Positions 10,794 to 62,758 of a stretch of 64,000 bases of DNA are shown one piece after another. Origin of the DNA: Phoenix dactylifera. Lineage: Eukaryota > Streptophyta > Magnoliopsida > Arecales > Arecaceae. The stretch spans positions 38,187,410 to 38,251,409 of the forward strand of contig NC_052392.1 in NCBI RefSeq assembly GCF_009389715.1, read 5' to 3'. Below the pieces are notes generated by a model. The model was not told where the DNA came from. It saw only the letters and a list, made by a program, of their open reading frames with translations, and made no database searches. A program made the translations under genes and the position numbers. Each line of letters opens with the position of its first letter. Position 1 is the first letter of the stretch.

Positions 10794-10930
10794 TATGAAG
10801 ACCCATGCAGGCGTGTGTTTACTCCCACATAGGTTATTCGTCGAGAAGATTTTGGATATTTATACAGGACTAAGAAACCTAAAAAATATCTTCCGGCTAG
10901 TTTTTTTGGGTAAGATTCTGGGTTGTGACA
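10794..10930 (+). mobile_element. TRIM solo LTR (family 1)
   Basis: 137 bp homologous along its whole length to the LTRs of the complete element at 56240-56678, including GCAGGCGTGTGTTTA, GGTTATTCG, TCTTCCGGCTAG and the GGGTTGTGACA end. Its start has changed from TGTGAGG to TATGAAG. A perfect 5-bp direct repeat AAGAG lies on both sides (10789-10793 and 10931-10935), so it is a solo LTR left after LTR-LTR recombination. Confidence 0.85.
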
Positions 10931-16343: not shown

Positions 16344-16480
16344 TGTAAGGATTCGTGCGGACGTGTATCTAGTTCCACATCGGTTATTCGCTGGGTAGAT
16401 ATTGGATACTTATAAAGGATTAAGGAACCCTAATAATACTTTCCGGCTAGCCATTTTGGGTGAAGTCGTGGATTGTTACA
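16344..16480 (+). mobile_element. TRIM solo LTR (family 1)
   Basis: 137 bp running from TGTAAGGATTCGTGCGG to GGATTGTTACA and closely matching the LTRs at 56240 and 56542. It is flanked by a perfect 5-bp target duplication ATGAG (16339-16343 and 16481-16485). No internal region or second LTR is present. Confidence 0.9.
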
Positions 16481-18907: not shown

Positions 18908-21856
18908 CCTCCCTCTCTCTTCTGTCCTTGGCGACCTGTGATCATAGATGTCCTTGGACATATATATACTTTCTGAAAGTTTTTGTTTTTTCATATACTT
19001 TTCCTTCATATCTCACCAACCAATCTTAGCTTAGCATCCTGATTCAACAATCTAAAAAAAAAAAATCCCTCGAATCTCAAGTGCCTTTTTGTTTTAGGGT
19101 CCGGCTTGTATCTTTCGCACGAAAAAATGATCATTTTTTTTTTTTCAGTATAAACGGTTAGATTGTACCATGTGTAGATCTCGAAACACTCCAAATTTTT
19201 TTATTTATCTGTCTGTATAAATTTTAAAATAATTATTAAGTGATCCACCGATAGATTTGGGCAAAAAAAATATTAATCTTTTTTTTTTTCCGCTAGATAC
19301 ACCTCCAACTCTTTGTTTTATCTCGAGATTCGAGCTTTTTTTTTTTTTTGTAACTACATGCTCTAGCTCTAAACTATAGTTTTCTCCTAAATATGGAAGA
19401 AGAGGTTTTATTTTTTGTTTTTTCTTTAAAGAAAACAGGATATTTCTAATACATTAGAGTCTTGTTGGGAGAATCATTGTTGCCTCAGGCACAGCAGCCA
19501 TACCATAAGTTTCTTTTATATTTGTTCCTTTCGATGGCTATAACAACAAGAATATACTTGGGCATGTGAGCAAATCCATTTGCTACCTAGGAGAGATTTC
19601 GATGGCATCCATGGGATTTTCATGAGAGGATTGTGACAATATGTGCATGATAATGAAAAAGTATCGGCTGCAGGGAATGGTGGGGTACGTTTTTGAAATG
19701 TGACGAATAGTCCTTGTCATGTGGTGGGTCCAGCAGACAGTATATGAGCCACGCGTTGCCGTCTTTCTTCTCCTCGTCTTTTTATTTTTGACCTCTTTTC
19801 TAAAAATTTGTTTGGATAATCGGACTGAATATCATATGAAATTCGTCGGTTCGGCCAATACAACCAGCAAAATATAGAATTATAGATGGAGCAAGGCTGC
19901 ATTCATAAATACCCAAAAATAGCTTTTGAATGAGCCGACTCGAATAAAAAGATCTACTAGTATTTATGAATATAGGTCTAATACAGCCTATAATTTTATG
20001 ATTTTGCTTGTTGTACTGGCCTAACTCACGAATTTCATAGAATTTTCAGCTTAATCATCCAAACAGATCCTATATAAGACAACAATAGCCCAAAACTTCT
20101 ATATATATATATATTATATTTTAAGTGTGATAAGCTTGCCTGGATTGTACTACAAAAATATAAGGCCACAATACTAGAGCCCAAACTAGAAGAGGGTTAT
20201 CATTGTTCCAAGTTGATCCCGATTTAGGTCTAAAATGAGCTCAGAGATAGCCCAAAATTTTTGTGTTTCCTATCTATCTTGGGTCGAGACCATATCTTGG
20301 TATAACAATAAGGTTGTTCTACTGCAACTAATATGTCACGAGTTTGAAATATGGAAACAACCTCTCCGTACATAGAGATAAGGCTGCTTATATCTGGCTC
20401 TCTCTAGACCCCAAACTAGTAGAAGCCCCATATATTGGGATGCCTTTTTTAGTATATCTTGGGCTTAGCCGTTTTAAGGGTTCAAATTGAGCCCAGCCAA
20501 TTTACTACTTGGACCATGTAGCCCCTCGCCATATACAAATTATGAACCATAACATTTTGTAGCAGCTGCATCTTCTCCATCTTTTAGTCTTTTATGCTAA
20601 ACAATGTTAGTTGGGGTTTTTCTACTGAGTTCTATCATGATTCTGATGATTATACTTGTTAAATGTAATTAGGGCTACAAATCCTTCACCATCAGTTGTA
20701 GGCTGGCCTCCAATTCGCGCATTTAGGAGGAATTTGGGGCTTCCACAAGCATCAAAGTCTGCTATGGATTCAGAAAAGGATACCAAGAAAATGAAACCAG
20801 TGGAGGGAGAGAACACGAGCAACGAGCCTGTAGCAAGGCAAACAATGTTTGTGAAGGTGAATATGGAAGGCTATGCAGTTGGAAGAAAAATTGACTTAAA
20901 GGTTCATGATAGCTATGAATCGCTCTCTCAAGCCCTTCAGAAAATGTTTCATAACTTTTTGATGGGTTAGTGAGTTCTAATCCAAGTCAAATTTTTAAAT
21001 TTTTGCCAATGTTGCATCCTCTCACTGCTTGTTGATTAATACTAAATTGCAATAATGCAAATGCATTTTTTTTTTTTGGTGTTTCTTTTGTTTGATAGAT
21101 TCATCTTTGATCTTTCTACATTTGTTCTGTTAAAAACATTTAGGCATGTTGTTTCATCACATTAATTGTTCCAATCTCTAGTCTTGTTCTGATGATTTTG
21201 TTAATGCATAAGCATTGATCCTATGCAAATGATATCTCTTGTGGTGCTCTAGCTTTAAAGCCTATTAAATCTCCATTGTGAATAGGCAATAGGCTAATAA
21301 AGCTGGTTTTATTTTCTATCCAGCTGATTACTCGAAGAAATCAAAGGAAGATGGAGAAGAAGAGATTGTTACTCCTAGTTATATTCTTCTTTATGAGGAC
21401 AATGAAGGAGATCGAATGCTTGTGGGCGATGTACCTTGGGAGTATGTCTTTTGCATCCATTTTTCAAGTTTTCGTGCAATTTTCGAAAAAAAAAAACATC
21501 ATACATTTTTGTTTCATAGGGATATGTTTGTTATCCATATAAAATCTAATGTTAAAAATTTTGCAGGATGTTCATCAATACAGTGAAAAGGCTATATATT
21601 GCACAAGATCCTAGGACACAAAAATGTGGTATGTTAATACTATTCTTTCCCTACAAACTTCAAGCAAGATAGAATTTTAAAATTGTAACTTCACAATCAT
21701 GCACATCTCTAATTAAGCTTCCTTTTTATCATTAATTGATATAGGGGTGATTGTTGTGCAGGTCGAGTACATTTGAACCTTCTGGAGAAAACAACTAAAG
21801 AGGGGATGACTTGTCTGATCAAAGAGACCAGGGAGAGAAGTTGCTTATGGAATTAG
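18483..21856 (+). CDS. Aux/IAA auxin-response repressor (IAA26/IAA18-like)
   Basis: Short-lived nuclear repressor that binds ARF factors and is degraded through TIR1/AFB when auxin is present. Five exons: 18483-18865, 20673-20965, 21324-21441, 21567-21628 and 21762-21856; 316 aa with matching phases. Domain I has the EAR-type LELRL at 41-45. A basic GSKR motif precedes the degron VVGWPPIRAFRRN (136-148). Domain III starts at FVKVNMEGYAVGRK (187-200) with the PB1 lysine K189. Domain IV includes YEDNEGDRMLVGDVPWE (249-265), the acidic OPCA motif, and VKRL. All four domains are intact, so auxin-dependent turnover is expected. The 12 or so Gly/Glu-rich stretches in the N-terminus are variable in the family. 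The C-terminus after VKRLYIAQD is longer than usual, and the last exon is the least certain. The RAFRRNL context suggests the IAA18/26 group (inferred). Confidence 0.92.
18872..18920. repeat. (CT)n microsatellite at the start of Aux/IAA intron 1
   Basis: A CT-repeat and CCCT run beginning about 7 nt after the exon 1 donor at 18866. Confidence 0.9.
19806..20068. mobile_element. fold-back MITE in Aux/IAA intron 1
   Basis: 263 bp with long imperfect terminal inverted repeats. The left end ATTTGTTTGGATAATCGG... pairs with the reverse complement of the right end, ATCTGTTTGGATGATTAAG..., and similarity continues inward for about 100 bp (shared ATGAAATTCG, GGCC and AGCAAAAT blocks). No coding capacity. 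The target duplication is unclear, so the superfamily is not assigned. Confidence 0.7.
20300..20446 (+). mobile_element. Au-like SINE in Aux/IAA intron 1
   Basis: The order of blocks AAGGTTGTTC..., TCACGAGTTTGAA (like a tRNA B-box GGTTCGAA), GGAAACAACCTCT, GATAAGGCTGC, CTAGACCCC and GTAGAAGCCCCATA...TTGGGATGCC matches the Au SINE consensus along its length with substitutions. It has the same direction as the gene and sits in intron 1. The A/B boxes are mutated, so Pol III activity is unlikely. Confidence 0.65.
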
Positions 21857-39714: not shown

Positions 39715-42700
39715 ATTACATGCCACTGGGAGTGTACAATTAAAGTTGAGGGGCCGTCCAAGCACCATTTAGTGGAACGAACTGCACATCCTATTCCATC
39801 ATCACCAATCCCATACTATGTGAGTTGGCAAACACTCAATGTATATATCCTCATATATTGTAGAACCATTATTGCTCTCATTGGGTTGTCAAGATCAAAC
39901 TTTACACTGCTTTAGTTCATGAAGCCATTGTAGCCTGTGTTTAATCTACCTTAATGGTGAGAGGATACCAAGCATTCGAAAAAATGGGGAGCTGTTCATT
40001 GATTACCACCAGGCACAAGTGTCTCATATATTAAAGTAGGCGGGATAGTATGTTCTCCATAGTATAAGGTGGACTCTCCACCTCGTTTGAGGAACCTTTT
40101 TGGTTTTAAAATGGAGTCCTTTTTTTGGACTACCATCCAACATGATGTATATGGCAGCCTAGTGGATACATCAGCTGCCTTTTTTGATCTTATGGTTATC
40201 CATCAGTCGGTCTACCATTTAATAAGAAACAGTTCTGAAGAACTGATGTGTTCTGAGTGGATTTTATATTGCTACCTTATCTTGGCTTGATGATTGGTTA
40301 TATGAATTGACTGTGGTCAAGTGTCACTTTGGGGATCACCATGCTATGGGTACTTTATAGATTTATAGTCCAATAGGCTATTAAAGTGTGCTTTATTATG
40401 CATACCTTTAACTTTTCACTCGGCTTCTGTAACTCTAAAATCAATATATGATTTCTCTATCAAAGTCTGGTGACACATTAATTCTAAAGGCATTAGTAGT
40501 TACCGGGCAGGTGTGACACTATTAGGCTCACATCATGCTTTTAATCTTGTATACCTTTAGCATTTCCTCACAGGCCATGGAATTGGTGTTGAACTTGGAT
40601 TGGTCTCCTGAAGTGGACCAGGCACAGGCCACATGATGCAATCCAACAATGCCACCTAACAAATTAAAGCTACGTTGTGCATTAGCCAAGTTTTTGGAGT
40701 CTGATTTGGTCTTATTTGGGCAGGAGTTGTTGATAAGAGGAGAAATATTGAAATTGTTAATACTTGGTAAAAGTCTATTTGGATCACCATGCTATGGGTA
40801 CGTAGAGATCAATATGCCGAGGATTAATACTTCAGTTGTTCAGCTTGATATACTTTCTCGTTCTCTTTTGAGTAGGAAACTTGATACACATTTGAACCTA
40901 ACTTATTAATGATGCAGAATGAATCAATCAAATGCATAGATTAGAGATTTTATTTTCGGTTGAAAAGATCAAATATCTCCACGCTTCCTAATTCTGTCGA
41001 GGCTTTTCTGAAGTATATTTGAAAGCAACATAAGAAATACAAAATGTTAATATTTCAGTTTCTTATCTGACAAGAAGTGATCCATCTTTGAGCGAAAACA
41101 ATTGAAAACTTTGGCATGTTTCTGAAAATATGGGGTCTCACATGACACTCTCACGTCATAGCCTTTTCCCCTCACTAATCTCTCAAGAAATCATGCAGGA
41201 ACTGTGTGGACAGCAACAACGCATGCAATTACTGCTGTCATAGGATCAGGTGTACTGGCGTTGCCATGGAGTGTAGCACAACTGGGCTGGATCATTGGCC
41301 CTCTTGCTCTCATTGCTTGTGCCTATGTGACTTACTACACTGCCATTCTACTTTGTGACTGCTATCGAGCTCCTGATCCAGTCCATGGAAGGAGAAACTA
41401 CACATACATGGATGTCGTGCGATCATGCCTCGGTAATTGATTTGTATAGAGCCTCCTTTATATGGTATCACCAAACATTTAGTTACTGTTCCACTGGTTT
41501 GTTTCGTACTATCTAATTTTACTGAACTCTGCTGTTTAGGGCCCAGAGATGTATTTATATGTGGTCTTGCGCAGTATGCGATGCTTTGGGGAACTATGAT
41601 TGGGTACACAATAATTTCTGCAATGAGCATAGTGTGAGTCATTTCATTCACTAGCAATGTATGTTTCTTTCAGAGGACTTAAGTTTTAGCTAACTTACTA
41701 TGTGCTGTCTCTAGTAGTTTTCTTCTACTTTCCTGGATATTATACTTGCACACTCTGAATCCTAGCAAAACTTATCTTCATTCTTTCGTTGAAAGTTTGT
41801 TCCCTTCAACTTTCAACTATTCTTATGAATAATTCAACAATGGAGAGTATCTTGTAGATCATTCTGAGAACTTTACAATCTTTGTTATATCTGAGGCTGA
41901 GCTATTTATATCTGCAATGAGATGTTACACTAGATTTCTCTTACGTTATTCCAAGCTTTTTCCCTTAACTAATTCATCTGCACTGACTATGATCTGAACA
42001 AGACAGAGCTGTTGCGCGTTCAAACTGCTTCCATCGCAAGGGGCATGATGCAAGTTGCCATGCATCAGGAACCTCATATATGATCGTATTTGGCTCGGTT
42101 GAAATTGTGCTATCCCAATTCCCAAACTTGGAGAAGATTACCTTAATTTCGGTGGTCGCCGCCATAATGTCGTTTGCATACTTGTTTATCGGGTTGTTCT
42201 TATGCATATCAAAGCTTGCTTCTCACGGTTCAGTTGGAGGTACGATTTTGGGAGTTAAGGTTGGGATTGATGGTGTCTCTGCAACAACCAAGACATGGGA
42301 CTCATTACAAGCTCTTGGAAATATAGCTTTCGCATACACTTACGCCATGCTTCTTGTAGAAATCCAGGTACCTCAATTCTGGGTTACACTAGCAACTGTT
42401 ATCACATATCTACTTTGTCAGCTTGTGAATAATCCTTCACCAATTTTCATTAGGTAGAAATTTATTAAAATGATAGAAGTCCAACACTAACATGCAAAAT
42501 TGAAGTGTGTTTCCTGTATCAAACTTCTCTCTTAACGCATACTCGAACACGAGAATTCTTTTTCATTGTTTATAATTGACCATTAAGAAAACAATCACAA
42601 TGTGGAATTGAATTGTCAGTACAACTAAATTTTATAGCACTGGTTATATGCATGTGTATTATTTTCTCTCCTTGTATTTTGTTTTTTCTAAGTTGATTTA

Positions 42701-43491
42701 ATAGATGCATTCAGTCCAGACTTGTTGCTCTTTGTGAAGGACACTGTGAAATCTCCCCCACCTGAGAACCAGACAATGAGGAGAGCAAGCTTGTACGCAA
42801 TTGGAGTGACGGCAGCCTTATATATTTCACTTGGTTGCATAGGGTATGCAGCCTTAGGCAATGGCACTCCTGGAAACATCCTCACTGGATTCTATGAGCC
42901 CTTTTGGCTGGTGGACATTGGCAACATTGCAGTCGTCATTCATCTAGTTGGAGCCTATCAGGTCATTCACATCTTAAGCCTCCTTTTGTAATCTTCTCTA
43001 TATAAGTGAATGCTATCTAGATAAAACAAATAGTGATGAGTTCTGGTTGATCGTTTCAGGTGTATGGGCAACCGATCTTTGCCAAGTATGAGGAATGGCT
43101 TGCGAAGAAATGGCCAGAATCAGCCTTCTTCCACAATGTGTACACAATACCTCTATCCTTCTCCAAAGGCTGGACCTTTCGGTTCACACCGTGCAAGCTC
43201 GTCCTTCGATCGGGCTTTGTCGTGTTAACAACGTTGATAGCACTGATGCTGCCCTTCTTCAATGCAATTGTTGGACTGCTTGGTGCAATTTCCTTCTGGC
43301 CACTGACAGTGTACTACCCGGCGACTTGTTACATGGCTCAAGCCAAGATCAAGCGAGGAGAACTGAAGTGGGTGGTGCTCCAGTGCATGAGCATGGTTGC
43401 ACTCCTTGTCTCGCTCCTCGCCGCCGTCGGGTCGGTCGCAGACATTGCTCAACGTCTCAAGCATGTAACATTGTTTAAGGCCGAGTTGTAG
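38161..43491 (+). CDS. amino acid permease, AAP family (AAP-A of a tandem array)
   Basis: Proton-coupled amino acid importer of the plasma membrane (Aa_trans/AAAP superfamily). Six exons: 38161-38197, 41199-41432, 41540-41633, 42007-42367, 42740-42961 and 43060-43491, with intron phases 1,1,2,0,0; 459 aa. A short hydrophilic N-terminus ends in DDGRIRTG, the usual AAP lead-in. It is followed by TVWTATTHAITAVIGSGVLALPWSVAQLGW (helix 1), CYRAPDP and RRNYTYMD, the family SPPPENQTM stretch, PGNILTGFYEPFW and IHLVGAYQV, and a C-terminal half with FFNAIVGLLGAISFWPLTVYYP. About ten to eleven hydrophobic segments are evident. The FYEPFW region lacks two residues of the usual GFGFYEPFW, shared with AAP-B. 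Exon 1 is separated by a 3-kb intron. Substrate range cannot be read from sequence. Confidence 0.93.
39085..39230. repeat. degenerate short tandem repeat
   Basis: Three imperfect copies of a unit of about 45-55 bp containing CATAAGAAGATATA, TCATGATTTGTTT and CCATTATTT, in intron 1 of AAP-A. Confidence 0.6.
39648..39711. repeat. (TA)n microsatellite
   Basis: About 32 uninterrupted TA units in AAP-A intron 1. The sequence can cruciform and is probably length-polymorphic. Confidence 0.95.
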
Positions 43492-44530: not shown

Positions 44531-47500
44531 ATGGAGATGCAGCAGGGTGGAGATGATGACCGCATTAGAACAGGTAGTCTACTTGGCCTTAAACACCTTT
44601 AAAATTTTCATAATAGAGGTGCTAAAAATATAATTTTTTTGGTGGGTGTCCACCTTTTGAAGTGCTGATGCTAGTTCACTTTCCTCTTTATTTTTCAAAT
44701 CATTGGTGCATAATGCAAATGTTTAGAGGACCCGCCATCATTTCTTTACTATGCATAAAGAAAAAGCAATTGAAAAGCATGGAAAATTCCACACACACAC
44801 ACACACAAAAAGAATGGAAATCTTGTTCTTCTCCTTTCTCTGTTTTTTATTTTTATTTTTTTTTTTGGTTTTGTAATGAAGAGGAAAGGTTACTTTAGCC
44901 TCTGCATGTATGAATGGCTCAATGCATCTAGCTGAAGCACCAAAGGTAACTGATTATTACATGAAAGCATGAAAGCCTATAAGTTTTGTTCCTTTTGGCC
45001 AAGTATTCCTACTTGGGAATTATGTAACAACTAAAATAGTCTGCACAAGGCTTGATGGTTATAACCATAATCTAATCATGAGATAACAAGTGTTACCATT
45101 TTGAAGTGCACCTTTATTTAAAAGATTTCGTATGCTGTCTTTGCTAAATCAAGCACTTCATTTCTACTGATGCTAGCTAGGAGAGTATAGATAATATTTA
45201 TGAGAAAATGGGCATTATTTCGATATAGATTAAAAGATGATGATGTCTACATTTTAATTTTAGACCTTCATTTAGCGCCATCTTCCTTCATTGTAGAATT
45301 TTTCTTAGGTATCTTTTTCCCCTTCAAAATGCACCTGTCTGCAGCTAAACTCACTAACAAATCGAATGTGAGAAACACACCATGGAATAATGATTGGTTG
45401 TGTATTTATGCATGCATAAGATGATCATACTATTTTTATCATGGGCTTTCACACCCCTGGCCATCCATTAGGCATTCCTGATTTCCGATAATTGTAACCA
45501 AGCTGACACTCAAGCAGTGTTGTGAAATCTTTGGAGATCAGTTCGAGATCAACTTATTATAGGTGGCTTCACAACATTTTCATATTAACAAACTGACAAC
45601 ACATGGAAAGTTAAAAGAGATTTTTGATCATTCAACACAATGTTAGTCTTTCTTTGGCAAAGATGGAAGCCCCCACAAGACGTTTAATTAATTATAACAT
45701 GGCATTATTAAAGATGACATGAACAAAAGCAACAACCCTGCAACTGATTATATAAATACAGTCAAGGATGGATAGAAAAGCCTAACAGAAACGTAACAAG
45801 CTTTGTCTGGAAGGATAAAACACTGCATAGATAGGGACACAACAAGCAAGAGCACAGAAGCATCACAAAGTAAAAGACTGAAACTACCATTCCTCCTTCA
45901 GAGGTCTCAATATTATGTGCTCCTGTTATCCCAACATTCCCTCGATAGTTCCTATTCAGCCAACAATCAGAGCCTTCATCCTGCACCAACATTTGTGTTA
46001 CAGAGCAATCAGTTTCTTATACTACCCTGGGATTTCAATTGTCCATTGTCCACTGAAGAAGATGGAATAGCTTAACACTTACAGAGCAGAGTTTTCCTTC
46101 AAAGGGATGAAAATAATAACTAATAACAATATGAATTTTACCAAGTACTGACACTTAGTTTTACTTCAAATTGTTCGAACAATCCATTCAGTTCATGCAA
46201 TTTTAGCAGGATGTAGCTAGAGTCTTTCATTTCAAACCTTTTTCCCTTGAAAAACTTGTTTTGAGTCATCCAATTCAATCACATCACAAATTGCATGCCC
46301 AAATTTTTCTTAGCATTCTCTAAATTGTGTAATTCATCACTTTACAACTTAATAGATCTAGTTAACAATACAATATGCATAAGGCATTTCTCTACTTAAA
46401 AACTCCGAAAATTAATTCTTAAAAATTTGCATGCAAGCATCATTCAGTTCGATGAGGTACGAAAAAAAGAAAAACAGTAAAAGAAAAATGTCAGAGTAGA
46501 AACAATAATGAAAAGACTCCAACCACATCTCTGACCTCCAGTCTGATCAAGGCAATTCAAGTTTCCTTCAGGCCAAGAAGGCTTTTGATGCCTTACTAGA
46601 ATGTCCTAGATGCCAGATGTATTAGGAGTGAAAATGCTGATGTTTCACCATCCCTGAGACGCATAACACCTGCCACCATTACTTTTCTCCTCCTAGGATT
46701 GTCTCCAATTAAGATCTTGTCGTCTGTACGCAGTGGCATAAAATACTAGCCCTTCCCTAAGTTTGAAAATTGTGTGCATGCATGCATGTGTGCATGTGCA
46801 TGGGTATGCATGTGCATGTGTGTCTCTGTGTGTGTCTGCATGCACATGCATGTTCATGTGCATGTGTTTGATCCAAAAATCTCTACTTATCCAGTTTAAC
46901 CCACTTTCTAGGGAGAAGCTTCACAGAAGGTGACTGCTTACATTCAGAACCTGGAATTACTACTTGCAAAATAACTTTTAGATAAACATCAGATTAAGCA
47001 AGTTTTAAGGCTTCACTTGGCTGGACTTAAAGAAATATTGCAAGGTTTTCATTTTATGGAAAAAATACAAACAAGTAAAGAACCACTTATCAAAATAAGT
47101 ACAAATTTATGAGATTTTGCAATGTGTTTTTTTTCTTTTTCGCAATCATGTCTCTTTTATTAATAGCACACTAATCATTTTTACTTGTTTTGACTTGACC
47201 ATGTAGGGGATGTGTGGACAGCTACAGCACATGTAATTACAGCACTTGTGGGATCTGGTGTACTGACACTGCCATGGAGTCTTGCTCAACTAGGCTGGGT
47301 ATTGGGTCCCTTTGTTCTAGTTTTCTTTGCATTCGTTACCTATTACACTGCCATTCTCCTAGCAGACTGTTACCGATCTCCTGACCCAATCAGTGGAAGA
47401 CGAAACTACACATATATGAATGTGATAAAAGCATTTCGAGGTTAGCATTCTGACTTGGAATTTATAGCCCATATGGAAAAAAAAATTTCTTGATTTTGAC

Positions 47501-49999
47501 CTAAAACTCATCTATAATACTTGAGCATCTATTTCCTAACAACTGTTTAATGAATCTTTCTGAGTGATAGAAAATGCATGCTCAGTTTCAGGAAAATTTG
47601 GCTAGAACAAAGACTGTAAGGAGTCACAGAAAATTTTCCAAAAAAAATTAAATTGAGAAAGATGAAAAGCATTTAATATCATGCAGAAAAACGATAAGCA
47701 ATGATAAGTCATTAAGGTCAAACAATTCAAACAATAAATATTACTACAAACATTAAAAAAAAACAACAAGCATCTCATGCATGTCCATAGAAGATATTTG
47801 GTATTCATTAATAACCAGAGTAACTCAAATAATTAGGGGCAATTTACTGAATGATCCGAGTAGCAACACATTACTGAATGTCCAGAGTGAAAATGAACTT
47901 GTTATCATGGGTGTAAATAAGCAAACATTTCACTCAGTCCATACATACAGGTACATCATAATCAATAATGACCATGTGTAGATTTAATTTCATCAACTAA
48001 TAATAAATTCTAAATAACTATTGAAACAAAAACACAGTACCAAATTATAGTTGTATTGTTGTATCCGGTTTCTTTTTCAGGTGAGAAAGATGTATTAATA
48101 TGCGGAATCACCCAGTATGCTATACTATGGGGAACTATGGTGGGATATACAATCACTGGTGCTATGAGTATGATGTGAGCGATTTTCTTCATGTAGTTTT
48201 CATTTGCCAGTGCTTCATTTCAATTCATTTCATATTTATATCTTAGTCTTAGTAGAAGTTTACCCTCTAACTATTTGGTCTAACTTTGTGTAAGGGCCAT
48301 TAAGCGATCAGGTTGCTTCCATGAGAAGGGTCACGATGCTAAATGCGAAGTTTCTGGAACCTTATATGCTGTAATCTTTGGTATAATGGAAATTGTATTA
48401 TCTCAACTCCCAAATTTAGAGAAGATTTCGTTTGTTTCATACATTGCAGCAGCAATGTCGGTTGCATACTCCTTTACTGGGTTATGCTTGTGCTCGTTGG
48501 AGTTTTCTTCCCACCCTGAGATCAGAGGAACTTTATTTGGAGTTGAGATAGGGAGTGGACATATCACATTATCTACAAAGATTTGGCGTTCTTTTCAAGC
48601 ACTTGGCAACATTGCTTTTGCATACACTTTTGCCATGCTTCTAATAGAGATCGAGGTAACAAATGTAATCTTTATCTATGTTGCACAGTATGCTTATATC
48701 TGAATCATTTTATGTTGTTCTATGGTCTGCTTAGATAAAACAAATCCCTTCTCTAATTCAATCTTAATATTATTTTCAAATTGTCCCCTAGAATAACTTA
48801 TCATTCTAAATATATTATAAATGTACTTGTTTTAGACTACTCTCATACTAAGAATTGCATGCATATATGACTATTTATCTACTCAACCAAATCACTAATG
48901 ACTGTATGGTTCCAAGGATACTCTGAGAGCACCACCACCTGAAAACAAAACGATCAATAAAGCAAGTGCATATGGCATTGGAGCAACTACATTGTTCTAC
49001 ATCTCCCTCGGTTGTGTGGGATATGCAGCCTTTGGAAATGATGCACCTGGGAACATTCTTACCGGATTTTATGAACCATTCTGGCTTATCGACATTGCAA
49101 ATGTTGCTGTCCTCATCCATCTTGTTGGAGCATATCAGGTATCTTATACACATAATGCATATATATGTATGTATGTTTTTTGATATATTTGTGCATGTAG
49201 ACAGATGCGTATTAAAAAAATAAAATAAAATGATGGAGGGGCATAATATGAAAGTCATGAGAAAGGACTGGGAATATTTGGTCGCATTAGAAACTTTAGA
49301 TCCCCCTAGGAACAAATGACAACAGAAATAATAAAATAACCCACATTATTGCAAAAGAGACTCATTAGTGCAAGATATACATATAAATTATTTTGTAAAG
49401 AATGCAGCAATGTGCTGACCTTGCCAAATTAAAAGAGCTCAGAAGGTTTAGGTATACCATGTATATTCAAATAATGCTGATATTTTCTTCAAGTTCCTCA
49501 AATTCACCATCCCTAGTTGAGAACTTAGGCCCTAAACTTGACATATGATTATCTTATCTTGTTTCAGATATTTGCACAACCATTCTTCGCCTTCTATGAG
49601 CAGTGGCTAGCTACAAGATGGCCCAATGTAGGCTTCTTTCACAGGGATTACACAATAGGAGTGCCTTTTACCAAATCAGTAACTCTAAAATTCACACTCT
49701 GCAAACTTCTCCTGCGAACACTCATGGTAGTTTTTACAACAGTGGTAGCAATGCTGGTGCCATTCTTTAATGCAGTTGTAAGCTTGCTTGGTTCTCTGGG
49801 ATTCTGGCCATTGACGGTATATTATCCTGTGTCAATGTATATAAGCCAAGCGAAAATCAAGAGGGGACAGCTAAAGTGGGTAATGTTGCAGATCATAAGC
49901 ATACTCAGTCTGCTTGTTACCGTAGTTGCCATCATTGGATCAATCGCAGACATCATTCAGCATCTCAATCATGTCGAACTCTTCAAAATTGAACTATAA
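44531..49999 (+). CDS. amino acid permease, AAP family (AAP-B)
   Basis: Second gene of the array, predicted plasma-membrane H+/amino acid symporter. Exons: 44531-44573, 47207-47440, 48081-48174, 48295-48655, 48917-49138 and 49568-49999; phases 1,1,2,0,0; 461 aa. The N-terminus MEMQQGGDDDRIRTG joins DVWTATAHVITALVGSGVLTLPWSLAQLGW (helix 1). CYRSPDP, RRNYTYM, PPPENKT, PGNILTGFYEPFW and HLVGAYQ are all present. The exon 4 end encodes IEIE where AAPs usually have IEIQ. It shares with AAP-A the two-residue gap before YEPFW. Exons 2-6 match AAP-A almost codon for codon in length, which points to tandem duplication. Intron 1 (2.6 kb) holds a CA microsatellite (44787-44806) and an RY-repeat tract. 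Confidence 0.93.
46771..46868. repeat. alternating purine-pyrimidine (TG/CA, CATGCA) tract
   Basis: About 100 bp of almost strictly alternating R/Y, with repeated TGCATG/CATGCA and GTGTGT units. It has Z-DNA-forming potential and many copies of the CATGCA core of the RY/Sph element bound by B3 factors. It lies in AAP-B intron 1, about 340 bp before exon 2. Confidence 0.75.
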
Positions 50000-54603: not shown

Positions 54604-54657
54604 AAAGGACCGTAGAGGATATGTGCTCCTCTAATACGTCACTGTGCTGGATATGTT

Positions 54658-54798
54658 TGTGAGGATTCGTGCGGGCATGTGTTTAATCCCACATTAGTTA
54701 TTCGTCGTGAAGATCTTAAGTACTTATACAAAACTAATTAGAAGACTAAAAAAATATCTTTCGGCTGGCCATTTTGAATGATTCCTTGGGTTGTTACA
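54658..54798 (+). mobile_element. TRIM solo LTR (family 1)
   Basis: 141 bp from TGTGAGGATTCGTGCGG to GGGTTGTTACA, homologous to the LTRs at 56240 and 56542. It has a perfect 5-bp target duplication ATGTT (54653-54657 and 54799-54803). Confidence 0.9.
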
Positions 54799-54944
54799 AT
54801 GTTGAAATGCTCCACACCCTTTTCCATCCTCATAACAAAGCCATGCAGATGTATAACTACATCAGCAGTGCAATCGATAGGTCCAATATCTTGTTGTTGA
54901 CATCTCTCTCTTTCTGTCTCTTCCTTTTCTTTTCCAAAAAATGG

Positions 54945-55121
54945 TGTAACAATCCAGGATCTCATCTAAAATGGCTAGCTGGAAGGTATTATTAAAGTTT
55001 TTTGATCCTGTATAAGTACCTAAGATCTACCAAGTGAATAACCAATGTGGAACTAAACACACGCCCACACGGATGCTCATATACTTCTTCCGTTTAAGCT
55101 CTAACATCCTCGTCAGGCTAA
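54945..55121 (-). mobile_element. TRIM family 1 fragment: 3' LTR plus the end of the internal region
   Basis: Minus-strand LTR at 54945-55081, preceded on that strand by about 40 bp (55121-55082) matching the end of the internal region of the complete element (TAGCTTGACGAGGATGT-like and the purine tract). The remainder and the 5' LTR are missing, and no target duplication is visible. It lies in inverted orientation 146 bp from the solo LTR at 54658-54798. Confidence 0.75.
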
Positions 55122-56055
55122 AAAAATTGTCCACAATAACACAAAGAAAGGAAGATACCACTAAGTGTCACTCTCTAGATCCGAGAGCATGACATAGTCG
55201 TGCTACCGTAGAGAATTGCTCACAATAACATAATGCCCATGATAACACTTCATATAGCATGATAAAAAAAAAAATCTAATATCATTTGCTAAACAAAAAG
55301 AGGCAGGAGCATCTAAATTCAATATTTAAATTTTTTCGACTACATAACTAAATTTTATAGTCAGAACTACACTTATTACTAGCTTGCAACTATGCTTCAA
55401 GCTTTATTCTTTCATCATTCATTCGTTTATTATTCTCTGCTTCTATCAACCTTAATTATCTGAAACAAAAAAAAAATATAAAGAGACAAATGAGCTTTGC
55501 GCCTTAGTAAGTAAACATACACTACCTTATCGGATCAAACATAAATTTTTACATGATTCAATGCATCATTTAGAAAGTAAAATTATACTGTAAAATAAAA
55601 CTTTCATAAACATAATAACAAATTGTCGTAGCAAACCAATCATGTATGCACAAATCATATAATTTCATAAAGTTGAAGGTGCTTTTTAAAATATCCATAA
55701 TCGTCAAATATTTGCCATTTATCTATACTTTTAATCAAAACAATGCTCATAGATTTTCACGTTATGGTCACTATAACCTGTGACAGAGATATCTTCATAA
55801 TCGACAAGATTTTATAGTTCATATTCGTTACCAACTTTAACCCGTTAGCAGATCCATTTTTAGAGACGGTTACAGCTATATAAGAGCTCGTAAAATATTT
55901 CATATTTTTCATAAATCATACCTTTATAAATAGGTTGGAAATGCTAAATGGCATCGCAAAAGTTTTAAATATATAATCATGCCACAAAAATTATTTATAA
56001 TAAAATAATCATCATAAGGATGATATTTGGCCAAAAACATGGAACATCCCGCACA
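55122..56055. other. intergenic, no gene seen
   Basis: Very AT-rich sequence without gene-like ORFs or recognised repeats. Confidence 0.5.
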
Positions 56056-56232
56056 GACAAACGTTCCACATCCAAAAATCTGGTTAATTTCGGCAATTAC
56101 GACGCACAACCAAAATGGAAAGTCAGCACTTGCCATCCTGCATGTACAGACGTTCGGCACCTAAAAATCTGCCTAATTTCGGCAATTACGATTTGCAGCC
56201 AAGATGGAAAGCCCGCACCCAAAAATCTGGCT
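56056..56232. repeat. two-copy tandem repeat, about 90 bp unit
   Basis: The blocks CAGAC..CGTTC, AAAAATCTG, TAATTTCGGCAATTACGA and ATGGAAAG..GCAC occur twice in the same order (from 56056 and from 56148). A third partial AAAAATCTGG lies at 56221. The TRIM element is inserted directly after it. Confidence 0.6.
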
Positions 56233-56239
56233 GGGGTTT

Positions 56240-56678
56240 TGTGACGGCCCATGCGGGCGTATGTTTAGTCCCACATCGGTTATTCGCTGGATAGATCTTG
56301 GGTACTTTTACAGGATCAAGGAACCCAAATAATACCTTCCGGCTAACCATTTTGGATGAGGTACTGGATTGTTACAAATGGTATCAGAGCGGACCCGGCC
56401 CATAACCTATGTGGACTAGGGGACACTGCAGCATGGATCCAGTGGGGCTGACCACGAGCCAATCATGGTGTTTGTGATTAGATTTGAATAGATATGAACC
56501 CTTAGCTTGACGAGGATGTCAGGACTTGAACGAGGGGAGTATGTGAGGATCCGTGCGGGCGTGTGTTTAGTCATACATCGGTTATTCGCTGGGTAAATCT
56601 TGGATACTTATACAGGATCAAGGAACCTAAATAATGCCTTCCGTCTAGCCATTTTGGATGAGGTCCTGGATTGTTACA
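56240..56678 (+). mobile_element. complete TRIM (terminal-repeat retrotransposon in miniature), family 1
   Basis: 439 bp. 5' LTR 56240-56376 and 3' LTR 56542-56678 (137 bp each), starting TGTGA and ending GTTACA. Primer-binding site TGGTATCAGAGC at 56379-56390, complementary to the initiator Met-tRNA 3' end. The 165-bp internal region ends in a purine-rich GAACGAGGGGAGTA just before the 3' LTR. A perfect 5-bp target duplication GGTTT lies at 56235-56239 and 56679-56683. The LTRs differ at about ten or more positions, so the copy is not brand new. It encodes nothing and would have relied on another element's proteins. Confidence 0.95.
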
Positions 56679-56683
56679 GGTTT

Positions 56684-57208
56684 CTTCCTTTCTTTCTCTC
56701 TTTTTTTTTTTTTTGTCCACATATTACGGCGACCAACCAAGATACACATGGGGGAACATGTGATTGTCCACGGGACCATAGTTTGGTCCCTCCCGGTCAC
56801 AAGGCCAAAAGTTTTCAAAAGATAAAGATGATAAGAAAGAAGAGATTTCTTGTGCGAGATGTTAAAGATATATATATATTGCCGACCCATACTGCCTGCT
56901 TCCACATCCAATCCACATGTGCAACTGAAACTGTTAGCATCCCTCATCCAGAAAGACATCTCGTTCAATATGAAACACTGAGGCAACAACCACTTTGTTA
57001 AAGAGAAGCAGTTGCACCGGAAGGAATGGCTTTATTGTGGCGTCTGGTTTTGAAACTCTAGACCAAAGTTCTCACTTGAGACTTAGTAGGTCAGCTGAAT
57101 GAGTTTTCGTCTGGTCCTAAAAAAGAGGTCAATTAATTTGGAGATCCAATTGTGGCATCCCTCGCAGAATTGAGTGGAGATTGGAATGAATTCTCCTACT
57201 GCTGCATA
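56684..57208. other. intergenic, no gene seen
   Basis: Holds a CTTT/T-rich tract at 56685-56714. ORFs on both strands start inside the TRIM and are not gene-like. Confidence 0.45.
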
Positions 57209-57338
57209 TTCTAACAATTAAGACTTCATCTGAAATGGCTAGTAAGAAGATATTATTTGAGTTTCTTAATCTTGTATAAGTATCCAAAATATACTCAACC
57301 GATGTGGGAATAAACATTCGCCCGCATGATTTGTCACA
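57209..57338 (-). mobile_element. decayed TRIM LTR (family 1)
   Basis: The minus strand reads TGTGACAAATCATGCGGGCG...CCACATCGGTTGAG...CTTGTATAAG-like blocks in LTR order, ending TTGTTAG. It is more diverged than the other copies and no target duplication is visible. Confidence 0.65.
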
Positions 57339-58461
57339 CAGAGTTGGTGACGTAGCTATCTTCTGGTTCATGTGAATGTTGTGGTTTCAGAAGCCCTAAT
57401 GGCACTAATTGATGCACAATGAAATGATGTGTTCCACTACCATTAGGCTCCGGCTTACCAAAGAATCCAACCACAGAAGGTTGTCGGAAACTTTGGGCGC
57501 ACAAAGTAATTCCAGCAAAGTTATTAAAGCAGTCCCTTCGATACGTTTCATAAAGAACAGAGAACTTTTCAGAGGGCTCATTTTCGCTAGCAAACAAGCT
57601 TGGAATAAAGAAGTTGGTGGACTAAACTGTAGCAGAAGGTGAGTCCTACGTAGATTGCACCATGAGGTAAAGGGTGACAAGAGGGGTGATTTTTTGAACC
57701 TGTACTCATTGCCAGCCATGCGAAAACAGCTAAGTTTATCCATACATGATATTTGCTGCCTCGCTAGACTAGCACTTGATATTGATGCTTCCATCACTCT
57801 TCCAAGTCTTTAGATTAGGCTCTTTTCCATCTAGCATTGGCTCCTTTATATATACCTCTATATATTATTTGCAATGAGGACATTATTTTGTGTGTTCTTT
57901 GGCAAGCTATTAGAAATATTTCAGGTGCTTTTCCAAGGTATTATCATGGATGTTGTCATGGTGCCACTTTAGGTAGGATGTGGGATTTGAGCATGATCAG
58001 GATGCGCATTAAGTTCCCTTTGATAAAGGGTCCACTAGCAAAAGGTGGGAGTCATAGATCAGTCTGTGCACAAGTTTCTTTGTCTCCGAGACAACTTTGT
58101 GCATGCGTTGCACGCAAACACAACATATTTACTTCAAATTGCTATCCTAGTAGTGGGTGCCTAGCTCCTTAAGGGACTGGAGATCCGGTCCCAAATTTGG
58201 CAGGGCATTGAATTGAGCTTTGTTTTGTTTTTTCAGTTCTCATATTATAACAGGTTTAGGTTCTCATAGCTTTTATTTTAAATTTCTTTTGAGTGTACGT
58301 CATTGCCACAAAAGCAAGTAAAGTGAGAAAAGTTCAGCATACGAACGGAAATGCACAACCACCCTCTTTCTTTTCTTTTCATTTGATTTTTTTCTTCTCA
58401 TTGTTTATGACAAGGATGAGCACTTATATCCAATCCTGTGAGAGAAATCAATGGCACACTA
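57339..58461. other. upstream region of AAP-C, no gene seen
   Basis: Contains minus-strand ORFs (57405-57797) and a plus-strand ORF (57837-58172) with no recognisable domain. These could be decayed retroelement or gene fragments. The last 100 bp form the AAP-C promoter. Confidence 0.4.
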
Positions 58462-58469
58462 TATATAAA
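58462..58469 (+). promoter_or_regulatory. TATA box of AAP-C
   Basis: TATATAAA 102 bp upstream of the AAP-C start codon. The expected transcription start (about 58492-58500) coincides with the left edge of the inverted-repeat arm at 58496. Confidence 0.6.
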
Positions 58470-58495
58470 CATCCTAAGACCATTCCTCTATTGCA

Positions 58496-58952
58496 GCTCC
58501 TCTATCACTGTCTCACATGTGAACCGTGGAGGCCGTCAGGATTAAGGACAGTGCGAGGAGAGAATTATATATGGATCAGAAAAGAACCATAGAAGACATT
58601 GACGGGGGTGATCACGCAAGACAAGGTAAGTGCCCATAATACTACTTTTATTAACTCATCCACCTATGTTTGATCTGCTGAGTTCACTTCAGAAACATGA
58701 TGTAACTTGTTAATTTTTTATGCTAAAGGTGATGAGCATGGTCATGGCTTTTCTTTTCTACTTGTATTATGTTACTCGAGACAGATTATCTTTTCTTTTC
58801 TACTTGTATTATGGGCACTTACCTTGTCTCGTATGATCACCCCCCTCAATGTCTTCTATGGTTCTTTTCTGATCCATATATAATTCTCTCCTCGCACTGT
58901 CCTTAATCCTGACGGCCTCCACGGTTCACATGCGAGACAGTGATAGAGGAGC
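58496..58952. repeat. inverted duplication of AAP-C 5' UTR, exon 1 and splice donor
   Basis: Arm 1 at 58496-58642 and arm 2 at 58806-58952, 147 bp each, match as reverse complements with five mismatches (about 97%) and no gaps, around a 163-nt spacer. Arm 1 comprises the 5' UTR, all 55 nt of exon 1 and 17 nt of intron 1. Arm 2 is therefore an antisense copy inside intron 1. The spacer ends with a direct repeat of TTTTCTTTTCTACTTGTATT (about 58748-58767 and 58790-58809), the second overlapping arm 2. Confidence 0.93.
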
Positions 58953-61900
58953 CGGATAGAGAGTTAGCTGGGATGGGCGGCATGGATTGGGCCGGATAAA
59001 TCTATAAAAATCAATTTTATTTGCATACAAATAATTTTTTTTTTTAATCTCGTAAAGAAAATTTGTGAAGAGTTATATAGGTCGGTTTGGGGTGGGTTTT
59101 TTTCTTTCCTGTATCTGCTACAAGTCGGGTAAAACCAGCTACGTTAAGATCGGGTCGGATCAGGTATCCGATAGGATGGAATAAATTGCCAATCCTGCTG
59201 ATAGACCCGTCATAAATTCATTGCGGATGTATATAATAGATGTGGATGCAACTCCAAAGAAATCTACATGGAGAATATATATTTTGAAGATAGAGAACTC
59301 TGCGAGTAATGTTAGTTTCTCTTTGAAGTTATATCCTCTGTAACTTGTTGTGGCTCTTCTGAATGCGTTGCAATAGAGTTGTCCAAGGACAGCCCACATG
59401 AGCAGAGATACTGGGCCTGAGCCTGTACTTATTCTACTGGCCTATGTTTAACAGGCACTTGTTGGGCCTCTTAAACAACAGCATGCCATAAAGAGGATGT
59501 GGCTTCGAACTTCCGAGTCTACCTAGCTTTTCCCGGTCGTCATCACAACCAGTCTAATAGCGCTATTAGTTAAGGTTCCATTTCCTTATTCTCATCAGAG
59601 TCAACATTAATGATCTTGCTTTAATCTGCCACTTGCGTGACGTCAATGCTTTCCTTCTTCCTCTCTTTCTACCCCCATCAGATCCCAAACATTAATTCTC
59701 CAGCACGGCTCCTTTGCGGTTTACACCTTATTCGTGCCGTGAAGTATCTGATGGTCGTCGCTATCAGAAGATGGATAGCTATCAAATAAAATGGCGTGAC
59801 ATACTATATGCGGTACATTACTGTTGATAGCCATCTATCTCCTGATGGTAGATGTCGGCCCTACAGTATTCTGCAGTGCAAATCGTGCACGAAAGAAAAT
59901 TCTGGTTCTCCGTGCTCACACCCGCGTCAGCCACAACCAACTAAATTAATTGGGTGGGGCATATAAGCTGTCTGGATCATGGATGCTCAAAATAGATATG
60001 GTCAACCAACAACAAGCCATGTTTCACTTATCTTCGCTTTTGCTTGTTATATGTAAAATTAATTTTTCCTAAACTGAGTTGAATGGAGAAAAAGGATTCA
60101 TACAGCTAGCCGACTCCAACTAATTTGGAATTAGGGTGCCTTAGCTGTGTTCAGATGAGTTGAGTTTATGGGAAATCAGTTTTAATTAGGGTATTTTGCT
60201 TTTAAATGAATACTTGTTGTATGTTGAGTAGTTGGATGGTGTCATTAAGAGGCAGGAAAGTTATGCTTAAAGGCGGAGTAAAGTGATAAATGAACCGTCT
60301 GGTATGGGCTAGAGGCATCAGGTGAAAACTAAGAGGAGTTGTTAATTTGCTTCAAAGGTTAAGAATGAGAGTAGCAAGTTGCTTCTAATGAAAAGTGTTG
60401 GCACATGCACAACCTGTTTGAGGTCAATGCCTTGCTCCTAATGGCTGGCATTTTCGAACCCTTTCATGGAACCCTGTATTGAATTGGACTCGACCAATGT
60501 ATGCAGGAACCTTATGGTCTGCTACAGCGCATATTGTTACCGCGGTCATCGGCTCGGGGGTGCTAGCCCTGGCATGGAGTGTTGCACAATTAGGCTGGAT
60601 TGCAGGACCGCTCGCTCTCTTCGGCTTCTCCGGCGTAACCTATTATACTTCCACCCTCTTAGCCAATTCCTATCGATCACCCGATCCAATCATCGGAGAA
60701 AGAAATCGAACATATATGGAAGCAGTCAGATCATACTTAGGTGACCTAACTGCTCCTTGGTCTGAATTTTACATGTGTGCCATCTTCCAACTTCTGCTCA
60801 TTAACAAAATTGCATTGCTTCTCCTCAAGGCCCCAAGGAAGTATTCATGTGTGGAGTTGCTCAGTATGTAAATTTATGGGGGACTATGGTGGGCTACACT
60901 ATAACAGCTACAACCAGCATGATGTGAGTAATCTCTATCTAATAGATCAGCATGAAAGATTTTTGTTAGCTAAATGAGATTTCTTTGTTCCTCTTGTGTG
61001 GCACCCTAAGCGCGATAAGGCGATCGGACTGCTTTCATCGAAACGGGCACGGCGCAAGGTGTGAGGCCTCCGGGACCGTGCTCATGGTAGTGTTTGGGTT
61101 AATTCAAGTTGTGCTCTCTCAATTTCCAAGCTTGGAGAACATAACATGGCTGTCAGTGGTGGCAGCTGTGATGTCATTTGCTTACTCCTTCATAGGGCTT
61201 GGTCTGTGCATAGCACAATGGGCTTCTAATGGTGGAATCAGAGGGGGGCTGGCCAGTTCCAGTGCGGTGTCATCGAGCAAGAGAGCATGGAATTCACTAC
61301 TAGCATTGGGGAACATAGCTTTTGCTTACACTTTTGCTGAGGTCCTGATTGAAATCCAGGTACTAATTTTCTTGGTCATTTTCTAGTTCTTCAACAACCC
61401 TTTTTTCTGTTTTTTTTTACACCATCAGAATATGATTACATCCATTATTGCATCGTTATGATAAAACATATAGTCTAGCCCTTCCTTGGTGGCTCATTAA
61501 TTTATGTGTAGATGCATCTTTGAATGAATGCAAGATGGTTGGAAAGAATTTTAAAAAATCTTACAAGGATTGAATGAAAAAAGATTCCATAGAACTAACC
61601 AACATGTTGGACAAGGCTTGTTGGCCTTATTAGTAGGGGAAAGCTTGTGAGTTTGCGTCTAAGAATTGTGAGGTTCCATAGAATCATTCTAGACTACTCT
61701 AGACTGATTCCATATATATTCTAGTTGACCTTGATGATTCTGGTGATCTTGTACATTTTTGATTAGGACTTTAATTGATTTGTGATTGATTATATTACCA
61801 AACTTAGTCAGTCTCAGTACTATATAAAGGCTGCTCTTGTACATTATATTAGACACAGACAGAAATACAATTCTTATCTCATTCTTCTATTCTCAACATA

Positions 61901-62758
61901 CAATTCTCTTATCTCATTTTTCTATTCTCAACATACAATTCTTTTCTCTCATTCTTCTATTCTCAATATGCAGGATACATTGAAGTCCCCTCCACCAGAA
62001 AACAAAACAATGAAGAAGGCAGCCATGTATGGAATAGGGGTCACCACAATCTTCTACCTTTCTCTTGGCTGCATCGGATACGCAGCTTTCGGGGATGATG
62101 CTCCTGGAAACATTCTCGCTGGTTTCGGAATCTACGAGCCCTTTTGGCTCATCGACGTTGGAAATATATGCCTCATCCTTCATCTAGTGGGAGCATACCA
62201 GGTCTCTCTCTATATATATACATATACATTCATCAAGCAATGACTAGCATCTAAGCTACATTACTGCTGAAGGCCAGTATCATGAACAAAACCACTGACT
62301 AGCTTCCACGTACATTATACTTTCAGGTCTATGCACAACCAGTCTTTGCCACTATAGAGAGACGGATCGCCTCACAGTGGCCAGAAGCCAAGTTCATCCA
62401 CAGGACCTACACTGTAAGAGTGCCCCTCATGGAGGGCGGCCCCTTAAGCTTCACGCTTTCGAAGCTTCTCCTCCGATCGGTCTTCGTCCTCCTCACGACA
62501 TTGGTGGCAATGCTGGTGCCATTCTTCAATGCTGTCTTGGGCCTTCTTGGTGCATTGAGCTTTTGGCCGCTGACCGTCTTCTTTCCAGTGAGCATGCACA
62601 TAGCTCAGAGGGGGATTGGGTGGGGAGCTCCTAAGTGGGTGTTGCTGCAGAGTTTGAGCATGCTGTGTCTTCTGATTTCAGTTGCAGCCAGCATTGGTTC
62701 TGTGGCTGACATTGTGGATAGCTTAAAGCTCGCCACCCCTTTCAAAATTGTGAGCTGA
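58571..62758 (+). CDS. amino acid permease, AAP family (AAP-C)
   Basis: Third array member, predicted H+/amino acid importer of the plasma membrane. Exons: 58571-58625, 60507-60740, 60830-60923, 61011-61359, 61974-62201 and 62327-62758; phases 1,1,2,0,0; 463 aa. The hydrophilic N-terminus (MDQKRTIEDIDGGDHARQG) differs from the others and lacks their GRIRTG. Helix 1 reads SATAHIVTAVIGSGVLALAW, nearer the canonical AAP pattern than the LPW of A and B. It has the full GFGIYEPFW, without the gap of A and B. The loop before TM6-7 is four residues shorter (SSSAVSSSKRAW). The end QRGIGWGAPKWVLLQ replaces the family's KIKRG..KWV, losing several basic residues. An inverted copy of exon 1 lies in intron 1, so expression may be unusual. 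AAP-C is the most diverged of the three. Confidence 0.92.
59751..59880. repeat. hairpin-forming MITE-like sequence
   Basis: CTATCAGAAGATGGATAGCT (about 59760-59779) and a few following bases pair with TGATAGCCATCTATCTCCTG (about 59824-59843) with about four mismatches, around a spacer of about 40 nt. Located in AAP-C intron 1. It resembles the hairpin at 54430-54603 in its core and in its flanking GTGC motifs; no target duplication found. Confidence 0.4.
61868..61973 (+). repeat. three-copy tandem repeat forming the acceptor of AAP-C intron 4
   Basis: Three units of 33-38 bp, each CAATTCT..T.TCTCATT.TTCTATTCTCAA.AT, at 61868-61900, 61901-61935 and 61936-61973. Only the last ends in GCAG, the splice acceptor of exon 5. 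The units supply a long polypyrimidine tract. Confidence 0.8.

Follow-up and report, generated by a model that had tools for sequence, protein, structure and literature searches.

A young inverted copy of exon 1 in the first intron of an amino-acid permease gene, probably born of break repair and predicted to pair with its source

New silencing loci may start out as inverted copies of genes, and young MIRNA genes are said, following Allen et al. (2004), to come from inverted duplication of their target genes. The sirtrons of Chen et al. (2011) reportedly have both arms within an intron. MIRNA birth by inverted duplication is also described in excerpts of PMC3237417 and PMC11706861. According to an excerpt of PMC5545994, an intron hairpin RNA can be the source of plant intron-derived siRNAs ('sirtrons') that act on the host gene, while the miR838 hairpin in intron 14 of DCL1 is processed in a way that gives nonproductive fragments of the host transcript (excerpt of PMC12825306). 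For the inverted gene pairs VIM4-VIM2, in Arabidopsis Cvi-0, and PAI, both siRNAs and methylation have been measured (excerpt of PMC13213937). Turning to how such copies arise, at breaks in yeast, microhomology beside the break primes foldback inversions whose length ranges from 2 to about 150 bp, most being shorter than 14 bp (excerpt of PMC11724301). Here we describe an inverted copy of exon 1 in intron 1 of AAP-C, a gene within a 64-kb stretch of DNA (the window; C1:38187410-38251409). What sets it apart from the known cases is that the inverted piece lies within an intron of the very gene from which it was copied, and takes in the predicted start (to within one base), exon 1 and the splice donor. 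We consider it probable that this is a young, repair-born templated inverted insertion in a working AAP gene, with a weak effect or none. Among the matches listed in the open-licence literature, there was no report of the AAP-C locus or of an inverted copy of exon 1 in its own intron.

AAP-C is an amino-acid permease (transporter) gene. Six exons joined through GT-AG sites give an intact open reading frame of 463 codons ending at 62758, whose product is a near full-length match to Aa_trans (PF01490; E 6.7e-104, profile positions 2-407 of 410). Coordinates of the gene and of the inverted pair are collected in Table 1. The predicted transcription start lies 35 nt past the first T of the TATA box and one base outside arm 1, and in the alignment the paralogs C10 and C14 have TATATAA at a roughly corresponding position. 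Retention of intron 1 would bring in a stop codon at 58637, after 22 codons. There are two further AAP genes, A, with exons 2-5 at 41198-42961, and B, at 47206-49138; in both, exon 2 is preceded by an AG acceptor in the corresponding position. The ATG used by AAP-C is six codons upstream of the apparent start of the paralogs. The latter (MKDIEGG.../MKDVEGG...) aligns to ATA at 58589-58591 in both arms of the inverted pair, so the shift of the start predates the inverted copy.

Table 1. Features of AAP-C and of its inverted exon 1 copy (positions in the window)
Feature	Position	Strand	Remarks
Predicted TATA box	58460-58469	+	TATATATAAA; TATATA at 58460
Predicted transcription start	58495	+	A of the CA initiator 58494-58495; a prediction only
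Arm 1	58496-58642	+	Runs from the AAP-C 5' UTR through exon 1 and the splice donor; includes the first 17 nt of intron 1
Exon 1, coding part	58571-58625	+	MDQKRTIEDIDGGDHARQ + 1 base; 18 codons plus one base
Intron 1	58626-60506	+	1881 nt, phase 1; donor GTAAGT at 58626, acceptor AG ends at 60506
Loop	58643-58805	+	Between the arms
24-nt direct repeat, first copy	58748-58771	+	Exact; ends in GTATTATG
Spacer between direct copies	58772-58789	+	18 nt; holds CGAGACAG
24-nt direct repeat, second copy	58790-58813	+	Runs into arm 2
Arm 2	58806-58952	-	Inverted copy of arm 1, inside intron 1; minus strand encodes MDQKRTIEDIEGGDHTRQ
Old dispersed-repeat fragment	58952-59206	+	Starts mid-element at the end of arm 2
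AAP-C exons 2-6	60507-60740, 60830-60923, 61011-61359, 61974-62201, 62327-62758	+	Intact ORF

The inverted pair is real. A repeat search found two arms of 147 nt each around a loop of 163 nt, 97% complementary with mismatches at five sites (58515, 58603, 58615, 58616 and 58618), and BLAST inside the window gave the pair an E of 6e-67. These searches bear out the arms and the five differences reported by the first-pass annotation, and with the gene model its placing of arm 1 over the 5' UTR, exon 1 and donor, and of arm 2 antisense in intron 1, also holds. Six ungapped inverted pairs of at least 40 nt and no more than 5 kb apart were listed for the window, of which the AAP-C pair alone exceeds 90% identity; the other five are 79-86% identical, four of them inside a cluster of dispersed repeats. 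At 19806-20068, two inverted arms of 68 nt (79%) are separated by 127 nt and are possibly the remnant of a MITE. Gapped BLAST widened the AAP-C pair to 58486/58961 at 94.9%. This extension was not adopted, as the dispersed repeat's own consensus explains the extra match equally well; because the bases to the right of arm 2 fit that consensus, we took 58496/58952 as the outer limit.

A search of arm 1 against its own genome (773,078,369 bases in 2,391 contigs), which scored the best candidates only and skipped very common words, gave two matches, both at the AAP-C locus, and a query of 58600-58825 matched only itself and arm 2. No third copy that could have served as the source of the arms was found in the window or in the genome. 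A MITE or transposon insertion is not supported, since the arm sequence, with its two matches in 773 Mb, is not multicopy, and a viral origin was rejected since one exact 36-mer common to both arms had no exact match in viral_contigs. No direct repeats of at least 20 nt that might be a target-site duplication were found around the whole insert; shorter ones were checked by eye. Arm 2 has the donor in unspliced form together with 17 nt of intron sequence, with no poly-A seen by eye, which excludes a processed retrocopy and agrees with the earlier view that the copy did not come from spliced mRNA.

We compared AAP-C with two closer relatives, which lie on C14 (at 8.808 Mb) and C10 (at 3.582 Mb) and are called by these names; their proteins are 77-78% identical to that of AAP-C over 293 shared codons. 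Three AAP loci were taken with their upstream DNA: those of C14 (L027) and C10 (L028), and one more distant AAP (L029). A homologue of exon 1 was located in C10 (peptide E 7.6e-5) and, as a weak match, in C14 (E 0.001), and neither of these two paralogs carries an inverted copy of it (8.0 and 8.2 kb searched). L027 has no inverted pair, and L029, where exon 1 was not located, has a 34-nt palindrome. L028 has an unrelated 104-nt inverted pair (86%) at L028:395-878, which precedes the C10 exon 1 by about 2.6 kb.

The paralogs also allowed four of the five arm differences to be polarised. Arm 1 is derived at 58603, where the change alters E to D, and at 58615; at these two sites arm 2 agrees with C10 and C14. 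The reverse holds at 58616 and 58618, where arm 1 agrees with both paralogs and the derived base is in arm 2. Position 58515 was left unpolarised, as the 5' UTR there aligns poorly. With two derived bases in each arm, both arms have aged since the event. These data bear on the worry that the pair is an assembly artefact, a fold-back read or chimeric join, which a single examined assembly leaves room for. The five differences, with paralog-matching bases found twice in arm 2 only and twice in arm 1 only, speak against it, and the loop, the duplicated 24-mer and the repeat junction are unlike the product of a fold-back read. The worry is therefore answered in part, by the split of the differences over the arms and by the 24-mer at the junction, with the single assembly still on the other side, and we consider an artefact extremely unlikely.

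The divergence between the arms is 0.034 (5/147), and the number of events falls to three if the cluster 58615-58618 is counted as one. Since synonymous divergence is 0.376 between C10 and C14 and about 1.4, near saturation, between each of them and AAP-C, the inverted copy appears to postdate both gene splits by a wide margin. At assumed rates of 1.3e-8, 6.5e-9 and 2.6e-9 substitutions per site per year, the five differences correspond to 1.3, 2.6 or 6.5 My and the three events to 0.8, 1.6 or 3.9 My. Gene conversion between the arms could make the inverted copy seem younger than it is.

The junctions of arm 2 suggest how it was made. On the inner side, arm 2 opens with the last 8 nt of the second 24-mer, GTATTATG, which are complementary to the inner end of arm 1 (58635-58642), giving a junction microhomology of 8 nt (GTATTATG/CATAATAC). 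On the + strand of the window, CATAATAC occurs once and GTATTATG three times, two of them at this junction. A nearby inverted copy and a priming microhomology, by which templated insertions are recognised, are thus both present. The 8-mer CGAGACAG of the spacer, at 58777-58784, has a single further occurrence on the two strands of the window, in arm 2 (58933-58940), where it includes arm 2's own variant base; in the spacer it could be templated filler or chance.

At its outer end, arm 2 meets the old dispersed-repeat fragment, which nhmmer placed on positions 138-403 of a 460-position model that includes some flank; several other copies of the repeat share sequence further left. With intron 1 as query, 23 of the 39 non-self matches listed (best 40 of 99 candidates) cover this fragment, at 68-83% identity; overall, the fragment is about 66-83% like other copies in the genome. 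Capture by a transposon was rejected, because the repeat beside arm 2 is old and begins mid-element at the junction, and its missing left part was not found in the loop. Three of eight repeat copies (L037, L038 and L040) align by BLAST 2-11 nt further into arm 2, which we took as gapped spill-over. A dispersed repeat of about 130 nt is present in five copies, in both orientations, at 54652-57329, just upstream of AAP-C, and in two further copies in the window at 10791-10932 and 16338-16483.

From this anatomy we infer that the copy was produced when a break in intron 1 of the working permease gene was repaired by foldback or template switching. A broken 3' end in GTATTATG would have annealed, by foldback or template switch, to CATAATAC just downstream of exon 1, and the primed end would have copied about 139 nt backwards through the donor, exon 1 and the 5' UTR. 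The new end would then have been joined further on, into the older intron repeat, with the loss of some sequence, leaving a young inverted copy of exon 1 in its own transcription unit. The scheme covers all features of the junctions except the 24-nt duplication; as the 24-mer is duplicated with 18 nt between the copies, at least one additional slip would be needed, or a duplication that was already in place. A copied length of 139 nt would also be near the upper limit of the yeast inversions, given how short most of those are (excerpt of PMC11724301).

Alternatively, the broken end may have primed reverse transcription on nascent unspliced AAP-C RNA, proceeding to its capped 5' end. The outer end of arm 2 (equivalent to 58496) is one base inside the predicted start, as run-off would give, and the intron sequence in the copy would require the template to be unspliced. 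However, 58495 is a prediction, a single agreement to within a few bases carries little weight, all other features are accounted for by a DNA template, and there is neither poly-A nor, by eye, an evident target-site duplication; we regard an RNA template as improbable. GC skew switches from -0.19 to +0.18 around 58500. The limit of the arm at the start may reflect run-off reverse transcription, copying of a strand exposed in an R-loop, or chance, and because the start is predicted only we hold the first two at low probability. It is very unlikely that an RNA-written antisense exon 1 forms a self-limiting hairpin whose folding competes with splicing and so sets AAP-C output. The origin of the AAP-C copy is unusually legible: the copy is young, its junctions are readable, and the likely priming microhomology, the capture site and paralogs without the arm are all visible.

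We then considered what the copy may do at the level of RNA. Folding of 58490-58960, proposed by the first-pass annotation as a check, gave -304.9 kcal/mol compared with -116.3 +/- 5.9 for 100 shuffles (z -31.8) and predicted the long hairpin. In a series of growing transcripts, the mean unpaired probability of the donor dropped from 0.295 with the transcript end at 58820 to 0.001 at 58840 and remained at that value. The donor was mostly paired even before arm 2 (0.22-0.30 unpaired for transcript ends 58700-58820), and with arm 2 shuffled its unpaired probability averaged 0.22 (range 0.04-0.27 in 20 mononucleotide shuffles). The start codon was unpaired at 0.001 with arm 2 versus 0.35 with arm 2 shuffled, in thermodynamic folding that leaves out U1, proteins and co-transcriptional kinetics. 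Unspliced AAP-C RNA is therefore predicted to be able to form a 147-bp hairpin that buries the donor. The suggestion that this hairpin hides both donor and start codon is upheld, as a prediction, for unspliced RNA; it fails for the start codon of spliced mRNA, since the mature message has no arm 2.

As to the fate of the RNA and the size of any effect, we infer that most AAP-C transcripts are probably spliced normally, with loss of arm 2, and that a minority may fold, remain unspliced and be diced or decayed, resulting in mild self-dampening at most. A regulatory effect appears possible; the indirect evidence makes a weak one more likely than a strong one. The stronger view is that AAP-C is a self-silencing locus, its hairpin being diced as a matter of routine and the resulting siRNAs cleaving AAP-C mRNA and/or guiding methylation of the promoter-proximal region, with a substantial lowering of expression. 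The duplex is 147 bp long and near-perfect, with a mismatch-free run of 87 nt, the antisense arm 2 perfectly matches 67 of the 110 possible 21-mers of 58496-58625 (5' UTR and exon 1), and inverted gene copies do act in this way at VIM4-VIM2 in Arabidopsis Cvi-0 (excerpt of PMC13213937). Set against this, splicing removes arm 2, only one of the four polarised arm changes is of the C-to-T type, and the CpG observed/expected ratio of the arms is 0.63-0.65 compared with 0.44 for the window. Three CpGs are common to both arms. Arm 1 has two of its own, both gained there, and so does arm 2, where one was gained and the other, at 58514, reflects either a gain in arm 2 or a loss from arm 1; a CpG lost from arm 1 is thus one possible reading of the unpolarised change at 58514-58515. 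With CpGs shared by the arms and a ratio above that of the window, there is no clear footprint of deamination. Targeting of the neighbouring genes AAP-A or AAP-B was rejected, as the only further match of arm 1 in the window (E up to 1), at 19876, spans 18 nt and has two mismatches.

Self-silencing is further opposed by the state of the gene: its frame is intact, it is under constraint, and its rate of evolution does not exceed that of C10 or C14. We obtained dN/dS of about 0.10 against each of C10 and C14 (dN 0.138 and 0.140; dS 1.433 and 1.397), although most of that branch predates the event, leaving little power for the last few My. In Tajima relative-rate comparisons on the 293 of 445 codons shared by all six genes, the rest being dropped, unique amino-acid changes were fewer in AAP-C than in the paralog (C10 or C14) in four out of four, with a chi-square of 4.6 for the C14 comparison using outgroup A and 0.9-1.6 for the others; relaxed selection on AAP-C is accordingly not seen. 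By a rough estimate, the neutral chance of the AAP-C frame staying intact over the divergence of the arms is 0.01-0.24, depending on the assumptions. The intact, constrained gene thus argues weakly against full silencing, and taking both sides together we consider self-silencing unlikely.

At the other extreme, the copy may be a pure passenger, with splicing winning or another start being used, so that the hairpin is never measurable and has no effect. The constraint on the gene is consistent with this, as are the two arm 1 changes, one of them E to D, that have no matching change in arm 2 and so, few as these changes are, give no sign of selection for pairing. On the other hand, going downstream from the donor, arm 2 is reached at 180-326 nt and the acceptor at about 1.9 kb, so the hairpin can be completed before the acceptor is transcribed. 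Use of another start would need another first exon, since the next methionine in the AAP-C frame is codon 89. We regard a pure passenger as a possibility to be taken seriously, if a somewhat doubtful one. AAP-C makes it possible to ask whether a young exon-intron hairpin lowers the expression of its host, and whether such a hairpin is tolerated, tuned or lost.

With regard to the class of the locus, Rfam 15 gave no match in the window at gathering score, and a known RNA family for the hairpin was rejected on this basis. A match to a known miRNA family is supporting but not essential evidence for a young MIRNA locus. The parallel with MIRNA birth drawn by the first-pass annotation is sound as far as an inverted gene piece is concerned and loose otherwise, the 147-bp near-perfect duplex being inside the target's own unit. 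As a candidate, the AAP-C duplex resembles the substrate of long hairpin siRNAs more than a miRNA foldback: a long near-perfect repeat and a predicted fold are present, and transcription through both arms would follow from the gene model.

Compared with sirtrons, one AAP-C arm is mostly exon. The miR838 hairpin of DCL1 is likewise formed in a pre-mRNA, but is an intronic miRNA hairpin processed by DCL1, whereas the long, near-perfect AAP-C duplex would pair exon 1 and the donor with the intron (excerpt of PMC12825306). VIM4-VIM2 and PAI share with AAP-C inverted gene copies able to form long dsRNA matching the gene, while in AAP-C a single 147-nt piece lies in its source gene's intron (excerpt of PMC13213937). 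The yeast foldback inversions are alike in being short, local inverted duplications that start at a microhomology and have their other end captured by end joining; AAP-C differs as a natural case in a plant intron, of 139-147 nt, with an extra 24-nt duplication and a mechanism read from its anatomy (excerpt of PMC11724301). Young MIRNA genes are similar in their inverted gene piece, whereas the AAP-C duplicate is inside the target gene itself and not at a separate locus. Overall, we would class the AAP-C locus as a templated inverted insertion, and its product as a candidate long-hairpin locus rather than a MIRNA gene.
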